64,000 nt of DNA from Mya arenaria (Eukaryota > Mollusca > Bivalvia > Myida > Myidae), in assembly GCF_026914265.1 (NCBI RefSeq), contig NC_069123.1:51778949-51842948 (forward strand). Direction: 5' to 3'. A program made the position numbers and the translations under genes. Shown one piece after another: positions 6,591 through 56,832 of this stretch. Each line of letters opens with the position of its first letter. The stretch's first letter is position 1. Under the pieces are notes generated by a model. The model searched no databases, was not told the origin of the DNA, and was given only the letters and a program-made list of their open reading frames with translations.

Positions 6591-9500
6591 ATGGCGGAAG
6601 GGGTTAAGGACGGCTGGTACCAGCGGGAGTTCGCCTTCGCCCGGCGGCCCACCTTCCTTCGGGTGGATCTAGACGTTTTACTTAACAACCTGAAGATACT
6701 TAAGGGACAATTATCCGCACATACAGGTAGGCCATGTACTCAATTGTTTTTACTTAGTCGAAACATTAAACGGGGTTAGTAGTAGTAGTGCTGCTGCTGC
6801 TGCTGCTGCTGCTGGTGGTGGTGGTGGTGGTGGTGGTGTAAGTGATGGTGTAAGTGATGGTGATAATTATAGCTGCCTTCACCGCCTTTTAGCCATATAA
6901 TTATTTTAAAAAGCTATCACTATTATATTTATACACGAATATTGCTAGCGCGTTTTTTAGTTAACGTCTCCATTGATATTACTTAGCTATTGGTTTTGAA
7001 ATTGCACCTGAACCGACATGAAGTAAGTCACGAATCCGACACAAAAGCATGTAATTGTTTTGAGCTTTTTGGAATTTTGGACATATTCTATTTTTAAGAG
7101 ATCATCGCGGTTGTGAAGGCGAATGCGTACGGGCACGGAGGACCGCGGGTTGCGCGCTTTCTGGAGCGACACGGGGTCTCCCACTTTGCCGTCGCTACCG
7201 CCCTCGAGGGGGAGGAGCTGCGGACTGCCGGCGTCCATGGAAACATACAGGTGTTTGGTAAGAAACTATCACACTTGCGGATATGAAATGTGAAATACTG
7301 GCCTTAGTTGAATGTGGTTTTTTGGTAACTATTATTCTTTTCATGAGCAATGCCGGAAATATACCAAAAAGCTATTTGAAAAGAACGTCAGTCGACACTC
7401 CACTGCATACACCTCTGTGGCATTTTAAAGGCTTTACATTTCTGAAGAAACGTGTAATACACTTTCAGGGAACGCGTCAGTGGAGGAAATCGGGACGATG
7501 TACGAGAACCGGCTGATCCCGACGATTGCCGATGTCGACTTCCTGTCTGCCTGGCTCGCACACTGGAGAAAACGCGAACGGAATACTCTTGGTGTAGAGG
7601 TACAGGCATTATCCATGACACGTGTTGTTGTTTTTCAAAAATAACTTACACAGTTGCTGAGCATGCTTGCTCCACGAGCTGCTGTTTGCTGTTCATGAAT
7701 CATTACTAAATATCTGATTGACATGGTTACTGTATACGAACAACTTTTATGTTTTGTGTGACAAAAAATCGGCCTGGGGAGGAAGTGGTCGAATATCGGG
7801 TAATTGATTTGGCAGACTTTGTATGAAAAAAAGGTTCCTCTCAATGTATTCCACATATGGGTGCTTACCTTTCTTGCGTCATAGAATACTTCCTGTTGCA
7901 GAATGGTCCTGATATGGTGGGCTGCGTGGTAATCAAGGTGGACAGCGGCATGTCACGCAACGGCTGCCAGCCAGAGAAACTTCCGGAAATCGTAGACGTA
8001 AGTTTCTCTTCATACCAAAATAAGTCATGCTACAATAGCAAGTATGGTTATATTTTTGTAAATGAAATCACTTAAGATGTTAAGATAGAACGGTTAAATT
8101 GTATTGTAGTAACATACTTTACATGCAAAATTATTGAATCGTGACGCCTATTTACTATCGACAAGTTTAATAATGGATAGACATTGATCTCTGGAATACA
8201 TGTCGCAAGTTATCAGCTGCAGCAGATGGTAGTATATTGATCGATTGACATTTTCAGATAAATTTCTATTTGCAAATAAAAACAACTACATAGATATCAT
8301 AAACACTGGAATATATCTGACAGCAATGCACACCATTATATATAAACTAGTCAGGTGTTCCTTTACTTCACAATATTGAATGTATGTAATTTGTTAAACT
8401 CATCAAAAAATGTACCTTAATCAAACGGTCGATCTTGACATTGGTCTCTCTTCATCGTATGTGTGTACATTGGTCCATGTTCAAGATATGTGTGTACATT
8501 GGTCTCTGTTCACCGTATGTGTGTACATTGGTCCCTGTTCACGGTATATGTGTACATTGGTCCCTGTTCACGGTATGTGTGTACATTGGTCCCTGTTCAC
8601 CGTATGTGTGTACATTGGTCCCTGTTCACTGTATGTGTGTACATCGGTCCCTGTCTGTTCACGGTTGGTGTGTACATTGGTCCCTGTTCACGATATGAGT
8701 GTACATTGGTCCCTGTTCACGGTATGTGTGTACATTGGTCCCTGTTCAAGATATGTGTGTACATTGGTCTCTGTTCACCGTATGTGTGTACATTGGTCCC
8801 TGTTCACGGTATGTGTGTACATTGGTCCCTGTTCACGGTATGTGTGTACATTGGTCCCTGTTCACCGTATGTGTGTACATTGGTCCCTGTTCCCCGTATG
8901 TGTGTACATTGGTCCCTGTTCACCGTATGTGTGTACATTGGTCCCTGTTCACGGTATGTGTGTACATTGGTCCCTGTTCACCGTATGTGTGTACATTGGT
9001 CCCTGTTCACCGTATGTGTGGACATTGGTATGTGTGTACATTGGTCCCTGTTCCCGGTATGTGTGTACATTGGTCCCTGTTCAACGTATGCGTGTACATT
9101 GGTCCTGTGTGTAAATTGGTTCCAGTTCCCCTATTTGTATACATTCGTCCCCGTTCCCCGTATTTGTATACATTGGTTCCCGTTCCCCGTATTTGTATAC
9201 ATTGGTTCCCGTTCCCCGTTATTGTATTCATAAATCCACGTTCCCCATGTTTGCATGTACATACATTTGTTCCCATTCACCGTATGTGTGTACATGTGTA
9301 TATTTTATGTTTCCAGTTTTGCGATAACTATCGTGTCCCGGTACACAGCATAATGACGCACTTTGCGCAGTCCTGGGACGACCCGGTCTTCACCCAACAA
9401 CAGATGGACACATTCATGGCCGCTGTTAAACCATACAGGTACACAGCCGCGTCTAGTGTTATATGTGTTTATAAATATTATGTTTTGGGACTTGCTCGGA

Positions 9501-11068
9501 TCAGGAAGCGTTAGCAATGGTGTTCATTTTTGCTGCTTCAGCATTTCTTGAACTTCCGCTATCGCATGTCACGGTTATAAATGAATTTTGTATTGAGCGA
9601 TTATGAATCTGCATATATCTAAATGTAACTTGCACATCTTCGTGTCACAGGACTCGCGGTGTAAAGCTGCATGTGGCTAACTCGGGCGCTATCGTGAACA
9701 AGGTGGGAACGGACCTAGATTTTGTCCGCCCCGGCATCTCAATGTACGGACAGGCGCCTGGTAAGTACGACTTTTTAACTTCGCAGAGGTCTATTTGAAG
9801 ATGTAACAAATAACCAGAACATTGAGAAAATTCAATATGATGTGAGAATCGATGGCTGTTTTCCTATTTTCTTTGTTCAAGTACCTGGTTAAAACACGTC
9901 TCCATTCCGCATTTCTCAGACACCAGCGAGTTCGGTGTGAATACGAGTCAGAAATTGGGACTGCGGCCGGTCATCAGCTGGTACGCGAAGGCATCCATGG
10001 TAAACCGCCTCCAGCCTGAAAGGGTCGTCGGCTACGACAAAACTTACAAGTGAGTAACCGTACAGATCGAAAGAGATGTAGATTTTGAATGCTTCGTGAA
10101 ACGTGTATAAATATAGAGCGGTTTCAGCAATACCACATAAAACAACTGCGCTATATATTACATTTAACGCAGTCATTGTTTGCTACCACATTGATGATGC
10201 CATTAAAAAACTGTTTACAGGTGCAACACAACAGAAACCATTGCTGTAATTCCTGTCGGGTACGCCGACGGCTTCCTGAGGTCTTACGACAAGCTCAGCG
10301 TCCAAACACTCGACGGTAAGTTTACGTAGCACTTGTAATGGTGTGCGTATTTTTTCCGGTCAACGATCTTCGACAATGTGAATATTTGTTTGCTATCTTT
10401 ATCAACACTGTCTTGTGGTTTCTTGAAGTTATCTTTACAAATGATAAATGTGAACAATTGTGTTCTTGGGTACAAACGTTTAAATATCTTTCTTAAAATA
10501 GAAGCACTCATATGGAAGTCACAAGGCTTTGTTGATTGAATAGTGTCATTCCTTTTGGCTCTTGGGGCCATTCATAACCTTGTTACGTTTTTATGTAACA
10601 ATGCAAATGCTTGTTAAGCCAAACTCTGAAAATCTTCTTTCGAAAATTTCTTTTAAACACATGAGCATGTGAATAATGTATGCATTGATTCGGAAAGATT
10701 GAGCTTACAAAGACATGAAACTTTACGCTTTGTTTTTGTCCTTCAAATCCAATAATGTTTTGAGGGGATTAATTAATTTCATAATGTCACTATACATATT
10801 TATTATAGTTATATAACTGTTAACGGTTCCAGGGACGCAGTGTCCACTTGTTGGCCGCGTTTCTATGGACGCGATCACGGTCAGGCTGCCGGAGGAGGCG
10901 AGTAATGCCCGCGTGTTCCAGCTCATGACACCGGACTACACTAACGTGAACTCCGCAGTTGCCATGGCCAGGCACGAGCGCACCATTCCATATGAGGTGT
11001 GCACCAACTTGGACAAGCGTGTTCCCAGACTCTACTTCCTGGACGGGGCCGTCCGGAACGACGTCTGA
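6591..11068 (+). CDS. alanine racemase, copy 1 (nine exons, 404 aa)
   Basis: PLP-dependent interconversion of L- and D-alanine. Exons: 6591-6726, 7099-7257, 7469-7599, 7902-7997, 9317-9438, 9651-9760, 9920-10049, 10221-10315, 10833-11068; all introns are GT-AG and the sum is 1215 nt with one stop. Motifs: IIAVVKANAYGHG with PLP lysine K52, KVDSGMSRNG, THFA (His of the active site), HVANSGA, VRPGISMYG, catalytic tyrosine Y290 in VVGYDKTY, PVGYADGF and VGRVSMDAI. The order is that of the N-terminal barrel (~20-250) then the C-terminal beta domain (~265-390). No signal peptide or membrane segment is seen, so it is probably cytosolic. The ATG context (GACATGG) is good. In bivalves D-alanine acts as an osmolyte; that role is inferred. 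The 3' end is followed by tandem repeats. Confidence 0.93.
6776..6839 (+). repeat. compound trinucleotide microsatellite (AGT, GCT, GGT)
   Basis: Three successive perfect triplet runs: AGT, then about eight GCT, then about eight GGT. It lies in intron 1 of alanine racemase 1, about 50 bases after the donor site. Confidence 0.95.
7607..7663. repeat. 57-bp dispersed repeat, copy 1 (intron 3 of alanine racemase 1)
   Basis: Contains GACACGTGTTGTTGTTTTT and AACTTACACAGTTGCTGAGC. A near-identical copy lies at 59024-59082 in the same orientation, where it directly precedes units of the 29-bp minisatellite. This suggests both are ends of one interspersed element. Confidence 0.65.
8437..9300 (+). repeat. 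29-bp minisatellite array 1 in intron 4 of alanine racemase 1
   Basis: About 29 units built on TGTACATTGGTCCCTGTTCA plus CCGTATGTG. Because 29 is not a multiple of 3, and no unit contains a stop, all three forward frames stay open and give spurious long frames rich in VCVYIGPCS. The last units (9120-9300) drift towards TATTTGTATACATTGG. The array ends ~15 bases before the exon 5 acceptor, so the branch-point region of this intron is probably repeat-derived. Confidence 0.95.
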
Positions 11069-11136
11069 TTCCCGAAACATAATTATTTTTTTCAGCCATT
11101 GAACACTTGATATCGTAATACTTTAACACACTCTAG

Positions 11137-11345: not shown

Positions 11346-11368
11346 ATGTGAATATAATCAAAAATTGT

Positions 11369-14645: not shown

Positions 14646-14805
14646 ACCATGGCCCGATTTAGAAGGCGAACGATCCTCACGTTATACAGAAAATCACACA
14701 AGACCGCCCTTTTTTCATTCAATCAACGTGTTTGTTTTTCCCTTCGTCCATACTAGTTCGCCTTAGACTGGTTTTTCGTTCTACCTAACGATGGTCAATA
14801 TATAA

Positions 14806-16605: not shown

Positions 16606-17589
16606 TTAAGGAAGAGAAGGTGGAGAATTCAAAGTATATGTTGGCTGAATGGATACCGATTCCTGGCTACTGGAGGCCAAGGGAAGGGTGGGAGTGCGGA
16701 TGTACTTCTTATAAGCGGAGGATTTCCAACGGCCTAACTTTTGGATGTCACAGGCAGACATGTGATTATTGGAAGCAAGAGTAGCTCCACCAATGCGAAA
16801 AGAATGTGCTGTGTACGTTTGGGGATCTAAATGGCAAGCTAGCACGCATGCTCGGAGTATCGATCGAAAATAAGTGGTGGTGATTGGTAGGCCGGTGCGG
16901 AGCACAAAAAGGGGGCCAGAAGTGTGGGATGTAAGCGATAAATAGCGCAAAAGAGAGTGGACGGGACATAAATGGCGGGTGGGTTGACGGGAAAAAGGGA
17001 CAGCAGAAGGCCGTCCTTGGGAATGTTTATATTGTTTCAGAATTATAGAAAACGAGGAAACCATAGAGTTGCAGCATTGAAATGAAACATCCTCACGTTT
17101 GACTAGGTTTTGGGAGCTTTTTGGGGAATATGCGATTTCTCCAACACGAAAGAGTCCGAAAAAGGCCAGGAGGAACATTGCACGCAAGAGGGTACGCGTA
17201 AAATGATCCGATACTACATGTTTTAGGACAGTTAACAGGGCGCTGAGCTGTGCTAGAGAGAAAGGTTGTCTAATGTCTGAACATTTATTACGACGTAGAC
17301 TGTGCAGTAATTTCTTGATGAGGAATGAGTCAGCGGGAACAGCCATATTGTGAAGTTTGTGGACGTAGCTTATGGCGGAAATGTAAGAAGTTATGGTGGA
17401 GGCTTGTAGACCGCGGCTGTTACAAACAGCAATGAATTGAGCAAGGCGTTCAGCGGAAACCGGAAGTAACGGTGTCTGTGCATAAAATGTATGGTGGAAG
17501 ACGTGGTAGTGCTTAAGAGCATTCTGATAGCTGGATTTTGTGGAAGGTGCCAGGGAAGATTCAAGAAGGGTGTACACCGCTTGGTTCAA
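16606..17589 (-). pseudogene. DIRS tyrosine recombinase region (fossil)
   Basis: About 327 codons with the phage-integrase fold signature: LFRVGEI around the first catalytic arginine, AHSFRIGGAT (H-x-x-R), LGRWKSSA and the C-terminal tyrosine in YKKYIR. It follows the RT region immediately on the same strand. In this class the recombinase replaces the integrase and inserts a circular DNA intermediate. Confidence 0.88.
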
Positions 17590-19118: not shown

Positions 19119-19162
19119 GATATGTATATTGATAGGGGTGACAGGGGAGCTAAGTTGTTTTT

Positions 19163-21745: not shown

Positions 21746-21956
21746 GCATCACGTCCAATCACAAAGGAACCACGAGAGCGTGCGAGAGCGCCGCTGTGCG
21801 AGAGAAATTGTTGTACAATGGCCACTTTGCACCCGAAATAACACCTGTTTTAAGGTCGCCGCCCCGTTATAATACGTCCATATAACCAATAAAGTACTAA
21901 GGTAATGAAAGTCACAAAGGAATAACCTTGAATTCCTGGAATCACTGTACAAAGAA

Positions 21957-24403: not shown

Positions 24404-24429
24404 TTGACACATTCAGCCTTTTGACACTT

Positions 24430-27411: not shown

Positions 27412-27450
27412 GTGTTAAAGTAATTATAAATGGGCTAAAGTAAAACCAAA

Positions 27451-42400: not shown

Positions 42401-45400
42401 GTTTACCTAATCCAACAAATGATTTTGTTAAAGAGCTAAACGATTTATTTTTTGAGTTTGTATGGAATGGAAAACCAAAAATTAAGGGTAAGTAACATTT
42501 TCAAAAAAGATTTTCCAGAAGGTGGTATTAATATGATTGATATTACAAGTTATATTTATAGCTTAAAATCAAAATGGATAAGAAATTTGATATTGAATGG
42601 TAGTAGTAAATGTTTCAAATTAATGTCTGTATTATTTGATGTAAATAAAATGTTGAATTGTGGTAAGAAATTTTGTGAAATTATTTGTCAAAAGATGTCA
42701 AACACATTCTGGAAAGATGTAATAAATGTATATATGTTATATATAGATAGGTTTTGCATAGACAATGTTAATCAATTTATGCATATGCCATTATTTTATA
42801 ACCACAATTTTGTAAATGGAAACTATGTATTTATTCATACCCTATACAATAAGGGATTTCGTTGTGTGAAAGATGTTTTTGATGCCAATGGAAATCTGTA
42901 TAGCCTATTGGAAATTGAAGCAATAATTGATAAGAAAATCAACTTTTTACACTATAATGGATTGACTTCTGCAATTAAGGCCTATATAAGGCATTGTAAT
43001 TTTGTGTTCAATGCTTTAACTATTTAGAATCTAGTAACCCATGTATGAACACTTTTATTAACCCAATTTTGACCAAAAAAAATGTTAACAGATTTCTTAA
43101 CAAAATCTCTATTGATAATAATGAAATTCGTACAAGTCAACACAAATGGCTGTTACAATATGAAAATGTCTGTATTAATTGTAAAAATGTCTATAGCTGT
43201 GTATTTAAGTGTACAAAGGATTCTTATATTCAATGGTTACAATTAAGAGTTCTTCATAGAATATTACCAACAAACGCATTATTATATAAAATGAAGCTAG
43301 TTGAAAATGATAATTGCTCCTTTTGTGAATGCTGTAAAGAAACTGTTTTACATCTATGTTGGGATTGCAATAAAATACAGCCGGTATTGCAGGATATGCT
43401 ACAAAAGTTGAATACAAATGACTCAAGTATTGTCATAAACAGTATGTTCGTATTGTTAGGTTCTGGGAATAATAGCTTTAAATTTGATATACTTTCATTA
43501 GAATATAAGAAATTTATTTTTCTGTGTAAAAGAAAAAAGTGTGTTCCAACAGTAATTGGTTTCAGAAATAGCCTTCAGTTAGCATGGAACATTTATAAAA
43601 ACACAAATATCTCAGATAAATTTAAAAGTAATTGGGCAATTGTAAGAAATTTGTTTTTGTAACTACAATGAAAGTTAAAAAAAAGCTGGTTGAAAATGAT
43701 AATTGCTCCTTTTGTGAATGCCATGGAAAAACTCTTGGAGAGCATCTATTTTGGGATTGTAATAAAATTGCAGGATATAATACAAAAGTTGAATACTTAT
43801 GACTCAAGTATTGTCAATAACAGTATGTTTGTATTGTTAGGTTCTGGGAATAATAACTTTAAATATGATATACTTTTATTAGAATATAAGAAATTTATTT
43901 TTCTGTGAAAAAGAAAAAAAAGTGTATTCCAACAGTAAATGGTTTCAGAAAAAGCCTTCAGTTAGCATGGAATATTTATGAAAATACAAATATTTCCGAT
44001 AAATTTAAAATGATTGGGCAATTGTAAGAAATGTGTTCTTGTAACTACACTTTACATATTTCAAGCTTTCATACATTTCGCCCAGAAGGGCGCCGACTAT
44101 ATTTGATATTACTTTAGAAATATTCCAACTTAGGGACTAGTTCATAAATTGCAGAACAATGCTTTCAATAGTTTAGTGATAAAATATGAAGTTTTTGTAT
44201 GTTTTATAAAACTTTACTCTTCAATTGATAATGAAACCTTAAATTACAATAGCCCTGCTTATCATTTTGAAAAGTTTGATTTTAAATACCAACTCAATCA
44301 TAACAACTCGGCCATCTCCGAGATATATACAGGCCGAGGTGTTCCGATTGATATGAATAGATGAAGGTTACACGGTACTATTACAATATCCGTTATGTTT
44401 GTAAACCTCCTACGCAGTAATCTCCCTTGGTGACGGCAAAAATGCCGAGTTTTGAAAAATTAACCTTGAGCTTAATTGTTTGTTTTGAAAATGTCATTCG
44501 AAAGAATGAACTCTAGATAATTCCCTCTTGATGTATATTATTTTTATCCCCGTTCTATATACTCATATGAGTGAAATGTGTTACAAAAAATTATACAAAA
44601 TATAAAGCAAGGAATTCACATAACATGCCGGTACAGATAAAAGGTGAATTTCATTTTATTGAATTCTATGTACTAGACCGTATTTTTTCCGAAGAAACGT
44701 ATGTATATTTTTGTTATGAGTTAGTTTTAACCGGAGGTTTAGCTTGGGAAAAAACCCAGAATATCTATAATTCCGGGCTTAAACTATTGTAACAATATTA
44801 TAATATTAACCATAATGTCCTTCAAGCTTATGTACACCCAACATAAAAACAAATACTATCATTGAAATAATAACCATTTTTGGTTATCTGCATGCACGTT
44901 TTTCTTCTAATTTCATTGCGCCGACTTGATGCTATACATCAACCTTTTTCTTGTTACTAATATGTTATCATTTTATTAGGCTGGTTATCATTTTAAATGC
45001 ATGTTTGTTTTCTTTCTCCGTATATCCAACATGGCTGCCGTTTTCTTCATGGTGCATGATAAAGCTGACGTCACAGTTTAGACTGGGACCTTGATTCTAT
45101 TTACGAAGATTAAGTCGGCTGCAAGAAGATCTGAACATTTTGGAAACTTAAATATCGGTCATACATGTCATTTTAGCAACAGTTGGTGTTCAAATTGTCG
45201 TATTGTTTAAAATTCGAACATCATTTCACAAATAACGCTTGAACGGTGGATGCTCTGACAATGTATAATTTGGAGACTCTTTTTCGGGCCGATTCATAAT
45301 TCACTTTTCCTAAGGAAATTAATCGGCTTTTGATAATGGCGCGGAGTGAAATATTCATTTTAATTGGTACCGAACTACTGCTTTGAATTTGAAAATAGAA

Positions 45401-48400
45401 TAAAAAGATCATTCAACACTCATTGATAGAAAACACTGCCGATAAAAATAAACAAGATCATCCATAATGCATGTACACTGCCTTCATGGGTTTGAGAATT
45501 ACTTGACCTCGATCTGACATTCTGCGATGACTCATCATGAATTCTGCGGCGTTAACAGCCTGCTCCATGTTGTCATTACAAAAGCGGCCTAGCCGCCAAA
45601 AAACAGTTCGAAACATACAATATCAAACTTAGTCATATGATTAATTGGTTGGACGAGGGCCAGTTGATATACATCAAGATGCATTTCAACAATGCTTTAT
45701 TATTTAAAATAATCCATTGAGCGGATTCTTTTATAAATATACACCGTTCTAGCGTCACACAATATTCGTAAGCATTTATATAAAAAATCAAAACACGTAG
45801 CCCGAGTTTAAAAAGAATATCAACCCGCATATAAGTTAGATACTAGCATGGAAATAGGATAGGTTTGTCATGAGAAACTTCAATACTCAACTATATATAT
45901 AGTTTTAATAAAGTGAACATATAACCTAAACATAGAATAAATACCAGTATGGAAGCGGTTTAGAGAAATCAGATAGCACTACAATTTAATGTATACAATT
46001 GTATCAAAGAATTTGTATCATCTCTGACCGATAGTGTCAGCTAGTTGTGACCCAAATATTATATGTTAAAGGGTTCACTTGCTGATTACAAGATATGAAC
46101 ATATAATTACAGCTTCCACTTTTTATCACAGACCAATTTCTGTTGTAGTCGAGTTTGAAACATTAATAATGTGCCAATTCCATCATCCAATCCATTATTT
46201 AGAATATGAGATCATTTTTTTTATCTTATACTCAGTATAAGTTTGGTCCTTGACGTATATTTATCTTGGTCATATATTTCATTTATATTCTTTCTGTTCT
46301 GCTTGTCAGAGATTATCGCGGTAGTGAAGGGCAACGCCTACGGGCATGGGCTTCTCCACGTGGCTAGATTCCTCGAGCAGTACGCAAAGGTCACGTGTTT
46401 TTCCGTCGCCACGGTAACTGAGGGAAAAGAGCTGTGTGAGAGTGGCATCAAGAGTGACATCATCGTACTGGGTAGGTATTGCTTAGCATTTGTTAACTAT
46501 TCGAATAACAGCAAACTTATACTTACGTCATTTGAAGAATGTGGACGAGGGAGGTCCCTGAATTGACGAAATACGTAATACGTCAGTAACCCAATTGTTC
46601 GCTATGGTATAATGCTCTTGTGCGAGAAAACGTGTTCAATGGATGAATTACCTAACCTTTTTTGGAAGAGTCGCGAATTGCATTTTCAGGTAATATAACG
46701 GGGTATGAAATTTCAACACTGATCCAACACAGGCTTATAACGTGTATCTCGGACATAGCCACCCTGGAGATATGGAACCAGCAGCGTGAGGTAAGGTGCG
46801 AGCAAAGTCAATCAGCCTCACTCTAATTTGAATGCTCGGTCATCGTTTGAATTAATTTGTTTTCATTTCACAATAGATTCAAACAAAGCAAAACCACTAA
46901 AATGTAATCAAATTCTGCTTTCGAACGTGCGGATAAAATATATGTATTGGAGTTAATACTTTCTTTCTGCTGTAATGGTGGAATAATACGAATAAGCAGA
47001 GTACTTCATAACGGTAGCTGTTGATCAAAGTTATATGCTGTTTTGTTGATTAAAAAGCTATGTACAGTATATCTTGCTACAAAATAGTAAGTAATGGTAA
47101 AGAAATATATTATACCAAAGTCATGTGGTAAGTAAACCGCTGAATAATTAAGGAGACATTGGGAAAGTCGTTGGACTATTTTACACATCGATATTTATAT
47201 ATAGCCGTTGCATGCGCATGGCTACAAGAACTTCTTTTGGGTATTCTAGGTGCAGGTTTTCAGATGTATTTTTTTTTCGATTTGGAAGTGTACGTGACTA
47301 AATTGCAAGACTTTGTATTAGTGTTGGGAATCGGACAGAAAAAAAATACTATCGATAATCGGTTTATGAAACCGATCAATGGTCGATTATTAATCGATTT
47401 AATCATTAGTAAAATATCTTTGATCATCATATTTAAGGCATACAGATACAGTACATGCACCAGTTTTAAGCACCAATGTTACCTTAAACATTTCTTTGAA
47501 CAAAAGAAAGATATCGATTTCATTTTTAATAATCAGTCAGTAACAAGTACTACAAGCAGTTGAATATTCTATATGTTTTTAAAAAAACAACAAAAAACTT
47601 TTTCTTTCAGAAATCTGAAAAAAAACTAAATTCTTACATGGTTAGAAGTAAACGGTAACATGTTTTAAAAATCACTTTAAAACCACAAACATGAGAAGAT
47701 GGAAACCAATATTTTAGCAGTCAAATTACAAAGAAAATTTGCAATAATGTTATGTAGTGACTTACTGACTTGATAAGAATATGACTAGATAATTTAACAT
47801 ACAACCACCTTAACATTTAAACATAAACTAGCATTAACCAGACACCAAACATATTTAAGTGACATTTTTTACTGGTAGTCGGTAGCGGTTACGGCCCTTG
47901 TTTCTATAATCGACTGATCAAATTTCACTATCGATTGTCGCCTTTCCGATCGATTGTCGATTATACTCGATCATCGACACAACACTACTATGTATGGATT
48001 TGATGTTTAGCCATGATGACAGCGTGGAACTTTACTTTAAATTTACGCGGTAAAACTATTTTGTCAAGAAATGAGTTTGTTTACATCGTCACATACCGGT
48101 TGTCTGGTACCCAGCGTACTCCGCACAACAAGTGTACCGATAATGAAATGGTAAGGGCAGGTTGTTACATAATTGGACTAGCTGCCAATTACTGATAAGC
48201 CCAACCCACTGTAGTAAAGGTGTATCGCCCACTAGCCAATAGCAGTCTCTCTGCTCAGAATACACTTGACCATTCATACATGTATTCACTCTGCTTGTAG
48301 CATCCATGCTGTTAAGAACTAATAAAATGTTGTCTTCTAACTGGAGTTAGTTGTTTACCTAAACCAGCTAACATACAAAACATGGTGTCAGAAGAAAAGT

Positions 48401-51400
48401 GACAATGACGTATAATTCGGATTAACGAAGTTCACTACATTCTGTGGACAATTGTCTTTGTGTTTTATGCCATTTTAAGAAGATGGATTCACAAAACAAT
48501 CCTAGAATGGATTGGGAGTCAAAGGACTTGCCAAGTGCTTTTAGAAAGTTCAAGGAGCACGCAAACTTTATGTTTGGAGGACCTCTAAACAAAAAGTCTG
48601 AGGAAGCCCAGTGCAATTACTTAATGCTATGGGTTGGAGAAAAAGGAAGACAAATTTTCTCCACATGGAACTTAAGTGACGATGACAACAAGACACTTAA
48701 GAATTACTATGACGGATTTGAGAGCTACTGTGCCCCGAAGTCAAATCACATCTTCAGCCGTTACAAGTTTAAGTCACGCGCACAGGAAGATGGAGAACCA
48801 TTCGAGTCGTTCGTCACGCAGCTGAAAATTCTTATAAAGGACTGTGGTTACCCAGTCGGGATTCAAGACGAGATGATCCGAGATCACATTGTATTTGGGA
48901 TTAAATCAAACGAAATCCGTGAAAAGCTAATCAATGAAGGATCAGAGCTCACACTGACAAAGTGTATAGACCTAGCTCGCACCCATGAGCTCAGCCAGTC
49001 CCAAGTGAAGGATATCACTGCAAATGGACAATTTGTAAATGCAGTCGGGAGTCGGAAACCAGGCAGGACCAAGCCGCCACAGAGGGAGACGTTCCACAGA
49101 CAGCCTGAAGCCCAGAACTCCAAATATGGACATAGTGAAGCCCGGAGTTCCAAATATGGACAAAGTGCAAGGACTAACATTCAAATATGTGACAATTGTG
49201 GTAACAAACACCAAAGGAAAGACTACTGCCCTGCCAAGGGAAAAGTGTGTCTTTACTGCAATAGACTGAACCACTTCGCAAAAATGTGTCGCAAGAAGGA
49301 CAATGACAGCAAGAAGGTCAATGAGGTAAACAATTTTGATATAAGATCTGATCTCGATTGTTACTCTCAGAATGATTTCTTTGTAAATAGCATTGAACAT
49401 GACTCATTGTCAAACCAAGCATTTGCCAAAGTAAAAGTAGGCACATCCATAATAGACATGAAAATTGACACAGGTGCGCAAGTTAATGTCCTCCCAAAGT
49501 CACTGTACTTGAAACTAAGCTTAAAGGGTCCATTACGACAAGCTCAGAAACGCCTCACTGCTTATGATGGCAAACCACTATGCGTGGAAGGTTACATAAC
49601 CATACCTTGTAAGTACAATGGTCAAACTTACAATGAAGAGTTTTAGATAGTTAAATCAGGTTCAAGCCCCATATTAGGCTTACAGACATGTTTGAGAATG
49701 AATCTGATAAATCTTGTACTTGCAATGAATTCTAGTACCCCAAGCAAAGATAATGTAAATCACACACCTCTCACAAAGGATAAAGTCCTCTCGAAATACG
49801 CAGACGTTTTCGAAGGTATTGGTCAGTTGCCAGGTGAATGTGAAATTCACTTGCATGAAAACGTCTTACCTGTAGTTCACCCACCTCGCAAAGTCCCTGT
49901 CGCAATTAAAGACAAACTCAAGGTAGAACTTGATCGCATGGAACATCTAAATGTCACTTGCAAAGTCACTGAACCTACAGACTGGGTAAACAGTTTGGTC
50001 ACTGTAGAAAAAGCAAACGGTTCTTTAAGGATATGCTTAGATCCAAAAGACCTCAATGACGCAATCAAAAGACCACACTATCCAAACAAGACGCTTGATG
50101 ACATATTGCCAGAGTTGTCAAATGCAACCATTTTCTCAAAGCTTGATGCTCGCAGTGGTTATTGGTCAATTAAGCTCACAGAAAAGGCTTCATACCTGAC
50201 AACATTCAACAGCCCCTTTGGCAGGTATCGTTTCTTGCGGTTACCATTTGGCCTGAATAACGCAAATGATTTGTTCCAAGATATGGACCATTGTCTTGAA
50301 AATTTGCCAGGTGTTAGGACAATTGTTGACGATATTGTCGTTTTTGGTAAGGATCATGCAGATCACGACCGCAATTTTGACATGCTCATGACGAGATGTC
50401 GTGAAATGGGTATAAAACTTAATGCAGATAAGACCGATATAGGCAAGAGCGAAATCCCCTTCTTTGGTCACATTCTCAGCTCTGAGGGACTAAAAATGGA
50501 TCCTGCAAAAGTCAAGGCCATACAGGACATGCCACCACCAAATTCAAAATCAGAACTACAAACTGTTTTGGGAATGGTCACATACCTTCAAAGGTTTGCA
50601 CCCAAACTCTCTGAAATCACACTGCCCTTAAGGCAACTACTTTCTAAGGATGTAGAATTTGTATGGGATATGCCCCAACAGGAAGCATTTCAGAAAGTCA
50701 AAAATGTCATAACTCAGAGTCCAGGTCCTGTATTAGCTTACTTTGACCCCAAAAAGGAAATAACTCTACAGGTTGATGCTTCCAAATATGGCCTTGCTGC
50801 AGTTCTCATGCAAGATGAGAAACCAGTCAGTTTTGCTTCGAAATCTCTCACTAAAACAGAGGTTAACTATGCTCAGATAACGAAAGAGCTATATGCCATT
50901 TTCTTTGGTTGCAAAAGGTTTCACCAGTACGTATATGGTAAACGAATCAAATGTCAGAGCGATCATAAACCACTGTTGGCAATTTGGAAAAAAGGCTTGC
51001 ATTGTGCACCCCCACGTTTGCAACGTTTGCTGTTACAGTTGCAGAAATACGATGTAGAATTGATATTTGTCCCAGGTAAACAAATTCCTCTAGCAGACAC
51101 GCTGTCTCGCAAATATTTACCTGACACATACCCAGAAATTGCAGAAGGTTTAGACGTGCATGTACACGCTGTCATGTCAAATTTACCTGTAAGTGATCAG
51201 AAAATGGAGCTGATAAGGACTGCCACAGAGTCAGATTCTCAAATGCAATTACTTGCAAAGGTTATTCTTGAAGGATGGTCAAATGACAGACCACAATGCC
51301 CCAGCACGCTTCTTGAATTTTGGAACTTTAGGGATGAATTGTCAGTAGTTGATGGCATTATACTGAAAGGAAACAAAATCCTTATTTACAAGGAAATCAG

Positions 51401-54400
51401 ACCCTTAATGTTGGAAAAGATTCATGAAGGTCACTTTGGTGTAGAAAAATGCACACAACGCGCACGCGAGGTTCTGTTTTGGCCAAATATGTCTTCAGAG
51501 ATAAAATCACTAGTGCTAAATTGCCCAATTTGCCTAGAACACAGGTGTTCAAATCAAAAGGAACCCCTGCAACCTAGCAAAGTGCCCGATAGACCATGGC
51601 AAATCTGTGCCACAGATCTGTTCCACTGGAACAATTCTGATTATGTCTTGCTGGTAGATGCATACAGCAGATATTTTGAGGTTAGCATGCTCCCAAACTC
51701 AAGGTCAGTCACAGTGATTGATAAATTGAAAGGTTACTTCAGCCGTCACGGCATCCCAGAAGTTTTACGATCTGATAATGGACCATGCTATGACTCTTTA
51801 GAGTTCAACAAATTTGCAGAACAGTACGATTTCAAACACATAACATCTTCCCCAGGTCACTCCTCGGGTAATGGACTTGCTGAAATTACCGTCAAGACAA
51901 TTAAGTCTCTGTTCACAAAAACAAAACAGGCAGGAAATGACCCATACCTAGCACTGTTAGAGTATCGCAATGCCCCATTACAATGTGGTCAATCCCCTGC
52001 ACAGCTCTTAATGAGCAGACAGTTAAGGTCAACACTGCCATTAGTAGACAAACAGCTTAAGCCACGAGTACATGATATGCAGACTGTTAAAGACAAAATG
52101 CATATTTCCAAACAAAAGTCAAAGTTTTATCATGACCAGTCTGCTAAGCCACTCCGATCTCTTGAAATAGGTGAAAGTGTAAGGGTAAGGCAAGGAAAAT
52201 GTTGGTTACCTGCTGTAGTAGAAAAAACGGTTAACAATAGGTCATATGTTGTCAAAACAGAGAACGAAGGATTATACAGAAGAAACAGGCAACATCTTTT
52301 AAAAACTAATGAGAAACTTTTTCCCACCAATGGTCAATCTTATCAGTCAAATCCATCCACCTCTGATCTAAATCCTAGCCCAATACCTTGTCCTGCTACA
52401 GAAAAGTCATCTTCTCTAGGTAATACAGTACAGCCACAAGTATCAGAGGAAACATTTAATTCCCCTTCAGTTGAAATACCTGTCAACTCACAAGCACAGA
52501 CCATTTCAGATAGCCATTGTCAGACATCTGATGATAGGGTTTATTATACAACGAGATCGGGTCGGAATGTCAAAATGCCTCAGAAACTTTCATTGTAAAT
52601 ACATGCTGTATTGACTATGTAAATAATGTTTTCAGGAACTACTTTTTCATGTTTATATGTTTAATTCTTGTTAGATTTTAGATATAATAGAGAGTGTTCT
52701 TACATTAGCAGAAAACCACAAGACATGTAATATAAACTATGCAGTCATAAAATGGATAAGTCAAGCTGTGCATTTATTGACATAGGAACTTAGCAAATTA
52801 CTACAAGCTGTGAACTCCAGTACTGACTGTGAGAACCCTACTTCAAAGAAAGAGAGATGTTACATAATTGGACTAGCTGCCAATTACTGATAAGCCCAAC
52901 CCACTGTAGTAAAGGTGTATCGCCCACTAGCCAATAGCAGTCTCTCTGCTCAGAATACACTTGACCATTCATACATGTATTCACTCTGCTTGTAGCATCC
53001 ATGCTGTTAAGAACTAATAAAATGTTGTCTTCTAACTGGAGTTAGTTGTTTACCTAAACCAGCTAACATACAAAACACAGGTAACCCAGGCTACACATAC
53101 CGGTAGCGACGAGAGGGATCATTCTGTAATCTACGTTATAAATCCTGGCGCCCGGGGATTTTCCATAGCTCATCTTACGAGCAGTAGAGCACTGGTGTAA
53201 TAACAATGAGTCTAAGGCTTTGAACATGACTTGTAGACGGACACAATAGGAAATGGTGTCTCTGGGGGAAGGCCACTTAAAGGATAAATAAATTTGTTAA
53301 TCAAAGGTACACGATAAGTTACTTTTACATGTAGTATTTTCCAGAAGACATACGTGTATTGTGTATAACAAATCATTACAGAACAATGTCGTTGCAAATG
53401 GCGCATTAGACTCCAATGATGTGTCCACGAGGTTAGCAAATCTACCAGCACCGAGCGAGTCACTACCTGTCATCATTCAAGTGGACACGGGGATGGCCGT
53501 CAGTGGCTGTCACGTGGATCAGCTGGCTGGTATTATGGAGGTAATGGCCGAGGAGTTATATATCAATGAACGTTCATATTTTTACTTGCATTATAGTACT
53601 GTGTAACGCTCTTATAGTTCGAATTTTAATATATTTCAATATACATGTACAGCTAAATTGCATAGAAGTTAACACCCTTTATCCAGTAATTTGAACCCAA
53701 TAAGTAGTACTAAGGTTATCGTTTCTATTTGGGTAGTTTTGCAAAAGCCATTGTATACGGGTCCACAGCCTGATGACCCACTTTGTGGATTCACGGGTGG
53801 AGCTGGACCTGACAAACCGCCAGTTACAATCGTTTCTCCGAGTCACAAAACCTTACAGGTACTTTCAAAATAATCCATTATTGACTTGACCTACCATCGG
53901 GGACCCTCCTTTGACTCATTCTGACTTGACCTACCATCGGGGACCCCCGTTCGACTCATTCTGGCTTAATCAACCGTCGGGGACCCCCGTTCGACCCATT
54001 CTTGCTTGACCCTATATCGGGGACCCCCGTTCGACTCATTCTGGCTGGACCCTATATCGGGGACCCGCGTTCGAATCATTCTGGCTGGACCGTTCGACTC
54101 ACTCTTTCTGGACCCTTTATCGGGGACCCCCGTTCGACTCATTCTGGCTGGACACTATAACGGGGACCCCCGTTCGACTCATTCTGGCTAGACCCTATAT
54201 CGGGGACCCCCGTTCAACTCTTTCTGGCTGGACCCTATATCGGGGACCCCCCGTTCGACCCATTCTGGCTTGCTTTATCGGGGACCTCCGTTCGACTCAT
54301 TATGGCTTGCCCCTATATCGGGCTCGACTTGACTTCCATCGGGGACCCCTGTTCGTCTCATTTTGGCTGGACCCTATATCGGGGACCCCCGTTCAACTCT

Positions 54401-56832
54401 TTCTGGCTGGACCCTATATCGGGGACCCCCCGTTCGACCCATTCTGGCTTGCTATATCGGGGACCTCCGTTCGACTCATTATGGCTTGCCCCTATATCGG
54501 GCTCGACTTGACTTCCATCGGGGACCACCGTTCGAACCATTCTGTTAATCTACATTAAATGAAGATCCTAGTGCCTCATGCCGAATGCTATATGTATCCG
54601 TAGTTTACAAGTCAGCTTTGTAAAAGTATGTTTTCCGATGGTGCAGTTTGAATGTTATTTTCAGTCTTATTGGCGTTTTTTTTCCTTCAGCAAATTTGTT
54701 TCTAATCCGTCTCAGTGTAATTGTGCATTCCTCGACGCAAGCCTTGCTATATTTCCAGGGACATTGGCATTCGCGTGCACGCAGCGAACTCGTGCGCTGT
54801 GTTCCGCGGCGTGGGAACGGATCTGGACTACGTGCGTGTCGGCGTGGCCGTGTATGGACTTCCGATAGGTAGGAACACGTGACGGCTTGGAAGCAACACA
54901 ACAAACATCTCAAGTGTTTCGCTATCAAATAAAACTCTGACTTGCCGTACATACGGGAAAACTAGTTGTTGTTATGATTGTATAGTGTTCTAGTCTATCT
55001 TACTTTTAATTATTGTCTGTTATATATAATAAGACAGTTGACCAGTTCATTGTTGTGTTTTATTATGTTATGAATGTTCGTTATTCACGACGGAAAATAG
55101 CTCATTGAGCTAATCTTTCTTGTTTCCTATACCCCACTTTAAACCAAGTTTCTTGTGACTATTTTGTACGACGTACTAGCATCGCTTCAACAATACGGCG
55201 TTCCGTGATTGCGGATTTAACAACTATTTGTACCCTGATTTCTTACAGACTCAAGCATTGTAAGTTTTAATAAGAGCGAGGCAGCGGGGCTCCAACCGGC
55301 GCTCAGCGTGCACTGCCGGGCCGTCCGTGTTCTGCAACTACACAAGGACCAGGCCGTTGGATACAACCGCGGATATGTGTAAAACTAATGTTTAATCCTT
55401 GAATAATCGTGACTTTTGCACCGCTCTAAATCACATAAGTAATTTTGAATCAAGTTTCAACATATTTTGCCAGTCAATTCAATGAATTAACATTGCACAT
55501 CAACAAAACACCTATACTGTCGCCGTTTGAGTAAATAAAGTCTGCCATCTCCCATTCGGAACTCCTCGGCCATTTTTTCAAAAACAACCTCGGATGTATA
55601 TGGACGGTTTACACACTTAAAAAGTGGTACGTTTAAGTCCGCTGCAAATAGATCGCGTAGTAATCTTATTTAGTAGTTAAAATTTATGACTTAACTCTTG
55701 GGAATCGTAATTATGTTTGCAATAATACACTTCACTGGCAATCAATTTAAACTGAGAGCAATGAATACAACTCTTAAACACTACATTTAATTAATGATTT
55801 TATTCAAAAAAATACGGACTACTTCAACAGATGTACCGGCATACATCCGAGGTTGTTTTTGAAAAAAATGGCCGAGGAGTTCCGAATGGCCATCTCCCAT
55901 TGGTTCCCTGCTTTACCCAACTGTGACGTCATCTCGACTCAAATTGTCTTTAAATTACACAAATGAAATGAGATAGCCGCTGAGGGACTTTAATTCTCAG
56001 TCAAATGCAGATATTAGATTAAAAAAACAGAAAGAGATACAAGGACGTCCGGGAGCGATACCATAGCTTTTTTGCGAACAGACCACTTGGTTCTTAAACG
56101 CTCTCGGTTTCCGGTACTGGGTACACACTTCTGCAAGTACTAGCCTTTCATTGCCGTTGGTTAAACTGATCGACAAGTAGGTTTGCATTTTTTTATTAGA
56201 AATAAATTATTGTCCAAATCAAGTTTAAATAAATCGAGTCGATTCAACGACATTTCCTTTTCAGATGTCAGGAGAACGACAAACGGGTGGCGGTGCTACA
56301 GCTGGGCTACGGGGACGGGTTCTCCAGGTCCATGACAGGCGGCAGCGTCTTCACAGTGGACAGTAGGGACATAATAGCGACTCTTAAAAGTTTAATTAAG
56401 ATCTGTTCATTTCATGAAAATACATTTATACATATACCACTGTAAGGATTGAGGAGATAGCTAAAAGTAAATGATATCGCCTCTCTCCTTTAGCTTTTCA
56501 TTATTATGTAATGATATCAATACATATAGTATTGCTTTTAAGAACGGTTCACAATGTTTTCAGATTTTATATTAAAACAATGATTCTTTGTAGGGACCGA
56601 ATGCAAAATAGTAGGACGTGTTTCTATGGATGCTGTTTTGGTGAAAGTGCCGGAAAGTGCAGATGACGCGCGCCTTTTCTGCGTGCTGTCGGACGACTAT
56701 GATCCACGGACGTCTGCCGCCGCCCTCGCCGCCCTGGTCGGCACGTCTACGAGTGAGGTGTGCGTCAGTTTGAACACTCGGCTGCCCAGAGTGTATATCA
56801 GCCGGGGGAAAATACAAGCATTCGTCAAATAG
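27451..56832 (+). CDS. alanine racemase, copy 2 (nine exons, 417 aa, 29 kb)
   Basis: Paralogue of the gene at 6591. Exons: 27451-27583, 46310-46471, 46690-46790, 53382-53540, 53737-53858, 54759-54868, 55249-55378, 56265-56362, 56594-56832. They sum to 1254 nt, with intron phases 1,1,0,0,2,1,2,1, identical to copy 1; exons 5, 6 and 7 have the same lengths (122, 110, 130). Motifs: IIAVVKGNAYGHG (PLP lysine K51), QVDTGMAVSG, THFV, HAANSCA, VRVGVAVYG, catalytic tyrosine Y301 in AVGYNRGY, LGYGDGF and VGRVSMDAV. Differences from the usual wording are ANAYGHG to GNAYGHG and RPGI to RVGV. Exon 4 has ~21 extra codons and exon 3 is 10 codons shorter. Exon 5 uses a pyrimidine-poor TTGGGTAG acceptor. No stops, so probably active. 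Introns 1 and 3 are filled with transposons. Confidence 0.9.
28345..28560 (+). repeat. degenerate GGTTGCTAAGGAAGT-type tandem words
   Basis: Words such as GTAAGTGGTTGCC, GGTTGATAAGGAATTCACTG and GGTGCTAAGGAAGTCATTTG recur. They resemble the larger array at 39030-39390 in the same intron. Confidence 0.45.
28561..29756. other. intron 1 stretch of alanine racemase 2, no gene seen
   Basis: AT-rich. A GTGGCCTAGTTCATAGCC ... GGGGTTCACTGAC arrangement at 28600-28675 is weakly tRNA-like but misses key A- and B-box bases. Short open frames at 29396-29742 are not recognised. Confidence 0.3.
29757..32285 (-). mobile_element. 5'-truncated LINE on the minus strand, young
   Basis: A 761-codon open frame (32261-29976) is followed by ~190 bp of 3' UTR with GGGCCGGTGGCCTTATGCAT and a pentanucleotide tail (TATTG repeats, 29757-29785 on the plus strand as AATAC units). 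The endonuclease domain and 5' end are missing, as usual for target-primed insertions. A clean long frame implies recent insertion, against the orientation of the host gene. Confidence 0.85.
29976..32261 (-). CDS. LINE ORF2 fragment: reverse transcriptase and C-terminal cysteine motif
   Basis: 761 aa, open throughout. RT motifs: VFKKGSNTDPNNYRAISV, YVFYVDFLKAFDNCVHEKLW, GTKQGCVSSTIVFNLYINDL and LFADDVSTFA, the catalytic ADD. Thumb and post-RT region contain VKPILTYSSEIWG. Near the C-terminus FCSYC..H.L..C forms a CCHC-like cluster (HFLIDCPLYDELR). The wording fits the CR1/L2/Jockey supergroup; I cannot fix the clade. The apurinic endonuclease expected at the N-terminus is absent because the copy is truncated at ~32280. 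It lies in intron 1 of alanine racemase 2, antisense to the gene. Confidence 0.88.
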   Translation of the reverse strand: MKINPFDGGNHSMSALFPQYLHLYQREMRNKLIANRKNPKAFWASVKGNVNKQRPQVPIDHNTWTEYFSELFRAKDSLDLNVGSENILNDLHIDSDDSELDTDITDDEILKSVRALKGSCSSGVDGICIEMLKSTIDYTLPYLNKLFNAVLSTGNVPATWCESIITPVFKKGSNTDPNNYRAISVGNSLSKVFMKILSNRLTTWAENNSILDEAQSGFCTGYSTTDSIFSLQSIIQKYLSKRKGRVYVFYVDFLKAFDNCVHEKLWQSLERKGINRDSKLLTVFKNIYSHLKSCVKVQTDITTGLTSFFDCNVGTKQGCVSSTIVFNLYINDLIACLKRYSRNGIYVIEVTGELYGLLFADDVSTFADTVNNLQSNIDTIGKFCDETGMKINLDKSIIMVFRGGGGLRRYEKWFYKGREIEVVPCYKYLGSYFTPTLSWTKTKELLSIQATKALNTLYKYQKQFGYFNLNDAFKLFDAMVKPILTYSSEIWGYEYSHQIEKVQITFCKRVSCLNQNVANFFALSECGRHPLSVTYMSRCIRYWIKLTQMPRDRNPRQCYEMLLRLDESGRTTWATRVKRLLFQHGFGYAWIAQEIGQVDMFIKLFTDRLTDTYNQKTMADINSSPKALCYRLFKSALTPETYISASIPFQYKRILANFRCSSHALNIEIGRHQNIERDFRFCSYCLNRNVYVVKNEIHFLIDCPLYDELRATYLLNIENIVSSERRFVKMMANDSITSIFALSKFLKSSFELREVYINSIN
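32600..32655 (+). repeat. fragment of the GCACCAGTCAATTG interspersed repeat, copy 1
   Basis: TAATGCACCAGTCAATTGTT and ACGGCCCC match the copy beginning at ~34179. The region after it diverges. Confidence 0.5.
32965..33070. repeat. palindrome-rich CGGCC segment related to the CATTCGG MITEs
   Basis: CTCGGAACATTTCGGCCATGGCCGAATTGTTAC contains a perfect TCGGCCATGGCCGA palindrome. The 12-mer TTACGATTGTAT occurs twice (~32991 and ~33046) around a GGAGGCCGAG word. The CGGAACA..TCGGCC wording resembles the arms of the MITE at 55553. A partial or collapsed copy is likely. Confidence 0.35.
33290..33400 (+). repeat. GGATATACCGGGG interspersed repeat, copy 2
   Basis: TATACCGGGGA..., TGTTTTTACCTTTCAGGTG is shared with 34213-34275. 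A CTTTCAG|GTG word imitates a splice acceptor in both copies. Confidence 0.5.
33401..33957. other. intron 1 stretch with a 17-G homopolymer
   Basis: Seventeen consecutive G at 33681-33697, preceded by CCCGGG-like and CCCTGGG/CCCAGGG words (33575-33660) that look like further degraded pieces of the neighbouring interspersed repeat. No gene. Confidence 0.5.
34165..34285 (+). repeat. GCACCAGTCAATTG/TATACCGGGG interspersed repeat, copy 3
   Basis: Contains both ATGCACCAGTCAATTGT (shared with 32600-32655) and GGTATACCGGGGATAGCCGG ... TTTTTACCTTTCAGGTG (shared with 33290-33400), which shows that the two other pieces belong to one family. Confidence 0.6.
34665..35025. mobile_element. ~361-bp foldback MITE (TTTAAAGCTGCACTCTCACA)
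   Basis: The left arm TTTAAAGCTGCACTCTCACA and the reverse complement of the right end (TTTAAAGCTGCAATCTCACA) match, and similarity continues for ~90 bp through CTTGGAA(A/C)GAGC and ATTTTTGCG. Ends are palindromic at TTTAAA, so the target duplication is ambiguous (TA or TTAA). I recall this MITE type as abundant in bivalves. Non-coding. Confidence 0.85.
35026..36800. other. intron 1 stretch of alanine racemase 2, no gene seen
   Basis: Plain AT-rich DNA. I found no convincing open frame, terminus or tandem repeat here. Confidence 0.4.
36805..36975 (+). repeat. ~160-bp direct repeat, copy 1 (with 37645-37825)
   Basis: Shares AAATTAAGA.GGAGAAAATA, ATAATTCTT, ACTTCCT, ATTTTACAA/GATTGTTCAAAGT and GTAACAGGTTT-like words with the second copy ~830 bp downstream. 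Confidence 0.6.
36980..37151. mobile_element. 172-bp MITE with 26-bp inverted ends
   Basis: Left arm GGGTTATAAGTACTGCGTTT continuing TGATCC (36980-37005) and the reverse complement of 37126-37151 differ at one base of 26. It lies between the two copies of the 160-bp direct repeat. No clear target duplication. Confidence 0.75.
37645..37825 (+). repeat. ~160-bp direct repeat, copy 2
   Basis: Second copy of 36805-36975, with a short insertion around GTCTGACATAGGTGTACAAT. Confidence 0.6.
37828..38631. mobile_element. possible ~800-bp non-autonomous element with short inverted ends
   Basis: TGCCTAATTCCCGAT at 37828 and the reverse complement TGCCTAATTCCGGAT at ~38617-38631 pair as 15-bp inverted ends. 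The interior contains a GTCACGTGGGGGATGACGTC word. No target duplication was verified. Confidence 0.35.
39030..39395 (+). repeat. degenerate ~18-22-bp tandem repeat (GGTTGCTAAG)
   Basis: About 16 variants of TGGTTGCTAAGGAAGTCATT-like words in succession, with frequent small indels. Same word family as 28345-28560. Confidence 0.8.
39440..40190 (+). repeat. degenerate ~150-165-bp tandem repeat (CATAATTTGAACAA)
   Basis: Four units marked by (CCCCAGG)...GCATTATTTGAACAA, GACATAATTTGAACAA, AACATAATTTGAACTA and GCCATAATTTT, with AATACATGAGGCTG/ATTACATGAGGC partners. A GC-richer segment at 39990-40160 retains CCACTACATTAGGCTGC. I recall this as a common bivalve repeat type. Open frame 39952-40182 is not convincing. 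Confidence 0.65.
40270..40560. repeat. member of a diverged repeat pair (with 25990-26260)
   Basis: Minus-strand words CATATGGATTATTTTCAAAC and CGTAAGTAACATGGAAT parallel CATCTGGATTAACGTACCGT and CGTAAGTACATGGAAT at 26110-26170. Confidence 0.35.
40803..43662 (+). pseudogene. L1/Tx1-type ORF2 fragment (reverse transcriptase), disrupted
   Basis: Linker GLLKFNNSLL, then RANWVKNGAKATTFFCNLEK, the RT core CIPKDGKPKEFLKNWRPITL, KDQTGFIKGRNI, LIDFEKAFDSI, GRGCRQGDPMSPYLF and the catalytic FADDTYLLLDG, ending with the CCHC-like CSFCECCKETVLHLCWDC. Breaks: in-frame TGA and TAA at ~40932 and ~40998, an internal deletion after FYNKMFWKDI (~41390; the LTxEE..A....K.PGxDGF block is missing), TAA at 41931, frame changes near 42130-42200 and 42490, and stops at 43025-43045. 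Motif wording is that of Tx1/L1-clade ORF2. Confidence 0.8.
43683..44050 (+). repeat. direct duplication of the LINE 3' end
   Basis: Copy of 43293-43664: both contain GTTGAAAATGATAATTGCTC, TTAGGTTCTGGGAATAATA and GGGCAATTGTAAGAAAT. The second copy has small deletions relative to the first. Confidence 0.88.
44051..46309. other. 3' part of intron 1 of alanine racemase 2, no gene seen
   Basis: At 44309-44352 an ACAACTCGGCC...AGGCCGAGGTGTTCCG hairpin-like segment resembles the CGGAAC/TCGGCC MITE ends. The rest is AT-rich, ending in a TTCTGCTTGTCAG acceptor at 46309. Confidence 0.4.
47319..47987. mobile_element. 669-bp non-autonomous hAT-like element in intron 3 of alanine racemase 2
   Basis: Ends TAGTGTTG ... 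CAACACTA, with subterminal clusters of ATCGATTGTCGAT/ATCGATAATCGG words on both sides. Flanked by CTTTGTAT (47311-47318) and CTATGTAT (47988-47995), an 8-bp duplication with one mismatch, as expected for hAT. No transposase frame. Confidence 0.6.
48163..48382 (+). repeat. 5' LTR of the Gypsy element
   Basis: 220 bp, starting TGTTACATAATTGG and ending ACATACAAAACA. Same sequence as 52858-53077. Contains an AATAAAATG word near position 160 of the LTR, a possible polyadenylation signal. Confidence 0.95.
48444..49646 (+). pseudogene. Gypsy gag and protease region (fossil)
   Basis: About 400 codons; the likely start is MDSQNNPRMDW at 48483. A gag capsid-like region is followed by two zinc knuckles (CDNCGNKHQRKDYC and CLYCNRLNHFAKMC) and an aspartic protease signature (KIDTGAQVNVLP). 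The wording resembles Mag/K02A2.6-type Gypsy elements. Confidence 0.88.
49692..52598 (+). pseudogene. Gypsy RT, RNase H and integrase region (fossil)
   Basis: About 968 codons. RT: ATIFSKLDARSGYW, RLPFGLNNA and the active-site TIVDDIVVFG. RNase H: ITLQVDASKYGLAAVL. Integrase: an HHCC-type zinc region (GHFGVEKC ... CPICLEHRC), then the DDE core DLFHWNN, LRSDNGPCY and ITSSPGHSSGNGLAE. The order RT-RH-IN defines Ty3/Gypsy. The C-terminal tail has no chromodomain that I recognise. Confidence 0.92.
52858..53077 (+). repeat. 3' LTR of the Gypsy element
   Basis: Matches the 5' LTR base for base as far as I can read; followed by the CAGGT target duplication. Confidence 0.95.
53880..54545 (+). repeat. 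40-bp minisatellite in intron 5 of alanine racemase 2
   Basis: About 16 units of CATTCTGGCTGGACCCTATA followed by TCGGGGACCCCCGTTCGACT, with indel variants. A ~170-bp block (about 54195-54345) is repeated at about 54365-54515, including the unusual word GGGCTCGACTTGACTTCCAT, so there is a higher-order duplication. It fills most of the 900-bp intron. Confidence 0.93.
55544..55897. mobile_element. 336-bp Mutator-like MITE with 9-bp target duplication (intron 7 of alanine racemase 2)
   Basis: Inverted ends of ~47 bp begin CATTCGGAACTCCTCGGCCA and contain AAAAACAACCTCGGATGTAT; element 55553-55888. Flanked by GCCATCTCC at 55544-55552 and 55889-55897. Non-coding interior. Shares its terminus with the 28-bp remnant at 3795. 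Confidence 0.88.

Follow-up and report, generated by a model that had tools for sequence, protein, structure and literature searches.

Three genes of the animal fold-type-III alanine racemase family lie in tandem at this clam locus and are here called A, B and C. Gene A has the residues of a canonical active site, while B and C have both lost the anchoring pair, Lys129 and Arg136, together with the gate residue Tyr354 (Geobacillus numbering is used for the residues). Our best explanation of the whole, held with modest confidence, is that A is a canonical racemase and that B and C are constrained but altered proteins which would not carry out the usual racemisation. An ancestral nine-exon alanine racemase gene would have been duplicated long ago. 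One copy, A, would have retained the canonical active site and, judging from its sequence, most likely makes D-alanine. The other line would have lost the three residues, keeping the PLP lysine, the catalytic tyrosine and most invariant residues, and would have been duplicated again, later, into B and C. These two most likely fold and bind PLP without the usual alanine racemisation, and may either partner or regulate A, with no racemisation of their own, or act on another substrate.

The window, that is the whole stretch of 64,000 nucleotides that was analysed, corresponds to C2:51778949-51842948, and the exon chains of genes A and B were rebuilt from its DNA. Gene A (6591-11068, plus strand) has nine exons of 136, 159, 131, 96, 122, 110, 130, 95 and 236 nt and a predicted product of 404 residues. 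Exon 1 (6591..6726), placed by homology and the assembled exon chain, holds the start codon and ends in phase 1. The PLP lysine lies in exon 2 (7099..7257), in the motif VVKANAYGHG; exon 3 (7469..7599) is followed by exon 4 (7902..7997), which encodes VIKVDSGMSR with both Lys129 and Arg136 kept. Exon 5 is at 9317..9438, exon 6 at 9651..9760, exon 7, with the equivalent of the catalytic Tyr265, at 9920..10049, and exon 8 at 10221..10315. Exon 9 (10833..11068) encodes GRVSMD and TIPYE, the latter with Tyr354 kept, and ends with the stop codon.

Gene B (27451-56832, plus strand) likewise has nine exons, of 133, 162, 101, 159, 122, 110, 130, 98 and 239 nt, and is predicted to encode 417 residues. 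Its first exon (27451..27583; start codon) is supported by homology, sequence and assembly. Exon 2 (46310..46471) carries VVKGNAYGHG, exon 3 is at 46690..46790, and exon 4 (53382..53540) encodes VIIQVDTGMAV, in which Lys129 is replaced by Gln and Arg136 by Val. Exons 5 to 8 are found at 53737..53858, 54759..54868, 55249..55378 and 56265..56362. The last exon (56594..56832) reads TSTSE, with Ser in place of both Ile352 and Tyr354, before the stop codon.

All 16 introns of the two genes are bounded by GT..AG, and both frames are open throughout, with one terminal stop each. The intron phases are 1,1,0,0,2,1,2,1 in A as in B, and exons 5, 6 and 7 measure 122, 110 and 130 nt in both. When the proteins are aligned, seven of the eight introns have the same column and phase; intron 3 agrees in phase, but its two positions are separated by 10 columns in a part of the alignment that contains gaps. 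The preliminary description had proposed two same-strand nine-exon genes with this phase pattern, exons 5-7 of equal length in spite of far-diverged proteins, and a conserved PLP lysine and tyrosine. The rebuilt chains bear this out: A is about 44% identical to B, and the two residues are K52 and Y290 in A and K51 and Y301 in B. As a picture of the locus it was right about the two tandem genes, but it missed a third copy outside the window and the substitutions at further catalytic residues of B.

Introns 1 and 3 of gene B are long (18,726 and 6,591 nt). The former contains reverse-transcriptase frames at 29976-32282 (minus) and 41001-41930 (plus), which are presumably LINEs. In the latter, an LTR retrotransposon-like element (48426-52598), which we take to be a Gypsy element, has reverse transcriptase, RNase H and integrase domains in its second frame and no family match in its first. 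Intron 5 of B contains a tandem array whose unit measures about 40 bp (53885-54544); the corresponding intron of C is three times longer (2699 against 900 nt). In the 5' flank of B, a dispersed repeat (27252-27403) ends about 50 bp upstream of the start codon and has at least 16 other copies at 93-98% identity, and a second segment (26900-26992) also matches other repeats, both results being taken among the best 40 of 147 candidates. Between A and B, adjoining reverse-transcriptase and phage-integrase-like frames lie on the minus strand at 16606-19250, the integrase core match being below the cut-off; we assume that they resemble a DIRS-type element. A further frame between the two genes has a GDSL-lipase-like match above the cut-off (21239-21748, minus) and is possibly part of a transposable element. 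Two frames split by a stop at 1636-2559, one matching a Psq-type helix-turn-helix and the other a DDE endonuclease, are the remains of a transposase. Tandem repeats with a 29-bp unit related to ACATTGGTCCCTGTTCACCGTATGTGTGT occur in intron 4 of A (8438-9295) and between A and B (24428-25367), and again, on the opposite strand, downstream of B (59084-59181).

The third gene, C, is intact and begins 2.3 kb beyond the end of the window. Its coding sequence occupies C2:51845240-51861287 (window-equivalent 66292-82339), with exons 1 to 9 at C2 51845240-51845372, 51846505-51846666, 51854780-51854880, 51856019-51856177, 51856366-51856487, 51859187-51859296, 51859725-51859854, 51860719-51860816 and 51861049-51861287. 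The exon lengths are exactly those of B, the phases are the same, the introns are GT..AG throughout, and the frame encodes 417 residues with no internal stop. Matches of at least 150 bp between B and C delimit a tandem duplication unit of 27420..58998 (plus strand) on the B side and of window-equivalent 66257-86077, outside the window, on the C side. Upstream of the B start codon, the identity extends for about 31 bp, and a comparison of the 6-kb 5' flanks of B and C gave no match. The whole assembly of 1,216,080,610 bases in 18 contigs was searched with PF01168, protein B and protein A, giving 7, 23 and 18 matches, respectively, all of which fall by position within the three genes on C2. Among the best-scoring candidates in this 1.2-Gb assembly no further copy was found, a search which very diverged pieces could escape.

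The two duplications differ greatly in age. Between B and C, identity is 94.2% for the coding DNA and 91.4% for the protein, with dN 0.040 and dS 0.126, whereas A shares 43-45% protein identity with B and C, and the A-B comparison gives dN 0.54 and a dS of about 3.3, which is saturated. In a tree of A, B, C and 68 of the 136 bacterial sequences described below (built by a quick method, with SH-aLRT support and no bootstrap), the clam proteins form one clade apart from the bacterial sequences, with an SH-aLRT of 99; the paths from A to B and C are 1.66-1.69 long and that from B to C is 0.078. The dS values and the tree paths thus indicate one old duplication, separating A from the B/C line, and one recent duplication, separating B from C. 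The old tandem duplication that had been proposed for A and B is supported by these data: the paralogues are on the same strand, fall in one clade and have a saturated dS, and the introns were already in place. Mean identity to the 136 bacterial sequences is 29% for A and 27% for B and C.

Two other origins were considered for the duplicated genes. A separate horizontal origin of B was rejected in view of the single clade and the seven common intron positions. That B and C are a false duplicate arising from unmerged haplotypes is unlikely, since most of the intron segments that align show 72-91% identity and the introns are very unequal in size. No relatives turned up in one scan of the viral collection.

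Family membership was assessed with curated models. The domains PF01168 and PF00842 are matched by gene A with 178.5 and 100.8 bits and by gene B with 157.2 and 86.3 bits, all above the curated cut-offs, and the TIGR00492 equivalog model gives 254.5 bits for A and 225.3 bits for B against a cut-off of 168; the observation is therefore not due to chance. This profile scan covered A and B, and the domain membership of C follows from its 91% protein identity to B. Both A and B score far under the cut-offs of the VanT models.

The active sites were compared with bacterial homologues, comprising 19 from a genome scan and loci from phylum samples, up to the 30 best from each. Of the 148 loci, 145 gave matches; 143 of these extended over 300 residues or more, and 136 distinct sequences remained. 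The sample is biased towards high-scoring, canonical sequences. Across the 136 sequences 21 columns are invariant. Gene A keeps all of them; B and C keep 20 and depart only at position 136, which is Arg in every bacterial sequence and Val in B and C alike. By way of a yardstick, leaving out each bacterial sequence in turn shows only 1 of 136 to depart at a column that is invariant in the rest. At columns conserved to 98%, A departs at 1 of 24 and B and C at 2; at columns conserved to 95%, the departures are 1 of 33 for A and 4 of 33 for B and C.

The other changes in B and C are of Lys129, present in 119 of the 136 bacteria, to Gln; of Ile352 to Ser, which is found in 4 of 136; and of Tyr354 to Ser, at a position where the bacteria have Tyr (127), Trp (6), His (2) or Asn (1) and none has Ser. 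Lys129, Arg136 and Tyr354 are all kept in gene A. Around the Arg136 site B and C read MAVSG, with Val-Ser where A has Arg-Asn and keeps the lysine. All three proteins retain Lys39, Tyr43, His166, His200, Arg219, Gly221, Tyr265, Tyr284, Arg290, Met312 and Asp313; among these the PLP lysine (Lys39) and the catalytic tyrosine (Tyr265) are also present in all 136 bacteria. At Ser204, C has Thr, which 9 of the bacteria also have. Since the residue changes are identical in B and C, a sequencing error is unlikely. A column labelled A170, which is Val in B and C, was discounted as an active-site loss, as it is not the entryway alanine of the papers.

In published structures Arg136 contacts the phenolic oxygen (O3) of PLP as well as the carboxylate of the substrate, and is itself positioned by Lys129, which is often carbamylated; the joint loss of the two residues is thus coherent. 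With Arg136 absent, B and C probably do not racemise alanine in the normal way, and it is mainly on this residue that we infer a loss of alanine racemase activity in the pair. The PLP lysine, the catalytic tyrosine and most cofactor contacts have been kept over a long divergence, so that both proteins probably still bind PLP. The same retained residues, together with the other invariants, also fit an active enzyme and count against our explanation, as does the score of B, which is still above the TIGR00492 cut-off.

These losses bear first on the view of the preliminary description that both copies were retained for D-alanine production, taken here to mean that every copy makes D-alanine, with dosage or regulation as the reason for its retention. 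The biology of bivalves lends itself to that view: D-alanine is called an osmolyte in these animals and alanine racemase has been tied to osmoregulation (PMC12259925, PMC7700177), so that the osmolyte system which the description invoked is indeed in print, although the report on Panopea doubts an osmotic role of D-alanine in its own clam (PMC12259925). The equivalog scores of A and B would also be expected of true racemases. Against this, B and C lack Arg136, Lys129 and Tyr354, and an Arg at the first of these positions is needed in the related racemases Lyr and Bar. We therefore consider it improbable that all copies make D-alanine, and the proposal that B was retained for its production is not upheld.

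A second alternative, possible in our view but rather doubtful, is that B and C are active racemases with a changed substrate preference, the small residue at position 354 opening the pocket for a larger amino acid and the job of Arg136 being done otherwise. Tyr354 forms the inner, or entry, gate which limits substrate size, and according to published accounts it is replaced by Thr in Lyr, Ala in Bar and Asn in VanT (PMC3485190). The low-activity AlrTt naturally has Gln there, and a Ser at the position left its activity similar, which speaks for this alternative and counts against our own explanation. B and C moreover retain the two catalytic bases and most of the PLP contacts. However, Lyr and Bar themselves keep the Arg in nature and are reported to lose their activity on its replacement by Ala or Lys (PMC3485190), and the stabilising Asn beside it is Ser in the MAVSG of B and C. 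The preferred reading, that B and C do not carry out the usual racemisation, rests mainly on the same residue.

B and C, taken as a pair, are under purifying selection. They differ by 37 non-synonymous changes over 949 sites and 35 synonymous changes over 302 (Fisher p 3e-6), giving a dN/dS of 0.318 with a bootstrap confidence interval of 0.198-0.502. In 1000 runs of a neutral simulation with 72 changes, a mean of 1.9 stops and 49 non-synonymous changes was obtained, against 0 and 37 observed; 37 or fewer non-synonymous changes occurred in 0.3% of the runs and zero stops in 14%. A dN/dS of 0.5, about the expectation for one neutral and one fully constrained copy, is reached or exceeded in 2.6% of bootstraps. 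Together with the upper confidence limit, this leaves room for one neutral copy and counts against our explanation; the data speak only narrowly against one copy being neutral.

It is B that is the weaker candidate for constraint. Its end branch is about twice as long as that of C (0.055 against 0.024), and of the 36 residue differences between them gene A polarises 11, of which 8 are changes in B and 3 in C, leaving 25 undecided. The 5' flanks of B and C have almost nothing in common, that of B is repeat-derived, and as the dispersed repeat described above reaches to about 50 bp from its start codon, B may not be expressed. The exons differ in dN/dS, with 0.05 in exon 9 and 0.86 in exon 7. 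The branch lengths, the polarised changes, the flank and the value for exon 7 would suit an explanation by decay under relaxed constraint, either of both copies or of B alone. On the other hand, the 18 exons of the two genes are all open and equal in length pair by pair, the introns are GT..AG, and the absence of stops, the deficit of non-synonymous changes and the overall dN/dS of 0.32 speak against it. Decay is accordingly an unlikely account. Non-synonymous changes are fewer in exons 8-9 (3 over 247 sites) than in exons 1-7 (33 over 688; p 0.011 in a post hoc comparison), which is only suggestive of a stronger constraint on the last two exons.

Returning to the preferred explanation, a part for B and C in mixed dimers with A would be in keeping with the architecture of alanine racemase, whose active site is built from residues of both subunits. 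B and C keep all five of the listed residues donated to the partner's site, and 4 of the 11 in their own PLP half-site are changed; this contrast is too small for significance, and the lists were taken from the papers after the changes were known. The papers also disagree on which subunit contributes Ile352. As a tentative proposal, to which we attach a good deal less confidence than to the general scheme, B and C could form a PLP-binding subfamily that arose from an animal alanine racemase and gave up racemisation, either tuning D-alanine output in mixed dimers with A or acting on a substrate without an alpha-carboxylate.

D-alanine is often very high in bivalves and the underlying genes are poorly described. 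Gene A, which from its residues is probably the alanine racemase of the clam, is the likely source in this species. The family models label B and C as alanine racemases as well, yet these may not make D-alanine. If the two are a conserved non-racemising branch, a residue invariant in the bacteria has been lost under continued selection, and a possible regulator of the osmolyte pathway is at hand.

In PMC12259925, AR-like sequences are said to be largely uncharacterised, especially in invertebrates, and the numbers of individual genes are listed: three genes for Mya arenaria, two for Dreissena polymorpha and a single one for each of Ruditapes and Mercenaria. The three Mya arenaria genes are possibly the same as A, B and C; the list gives gene numbers only and cannot be matched to the individual genes. 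The human comparison gene in that list is, we assume, serine racemase, and the list may therefore mix families. The main text of a survey of the transfer of D-amino-acid enzymes in eukaryotes was searched and makes no mention of molluscs or bivalves (PMC5169069). No description of such an array, or of a loss of Arg136 in an animal, was found in the available extracts of the open-licence literature on alanine racemase and D-alanine.

Compared with known systems, A, B and C are most like Alr (EC 5.1.1.1, TIGR00492), with which they share both domains, the PLP lysine, the catalytic tyrosine, Arg219, Tyr284 and the Met312-Asp313 pair. They differ from it in that the clam genes have nine exons and in that B and C carry Gln for Lys129, Val for Arg136 and Ser for both Ile352 and Tyr354. 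Lyr and Bar, as described in PMC3485190, belong to the same fold family and, like B and C, lack both the Tyr of position 354 and the Lys of position 129. In these enzymes, however, the Arg is kept and a neighbouring Asn takes over the role of the lysine, an Arg-Asn feature that is absent from B and C, where the two residues are Val-Ser. The VanT-type chain 4ecl also keeps the Arg, aligning as GMHR against GMAV in B and C, and the likeness to VanT lies at the gate, where a small polar residue, reported to be Asn in VanT and found to be Ser in B and C, occupies position 354.
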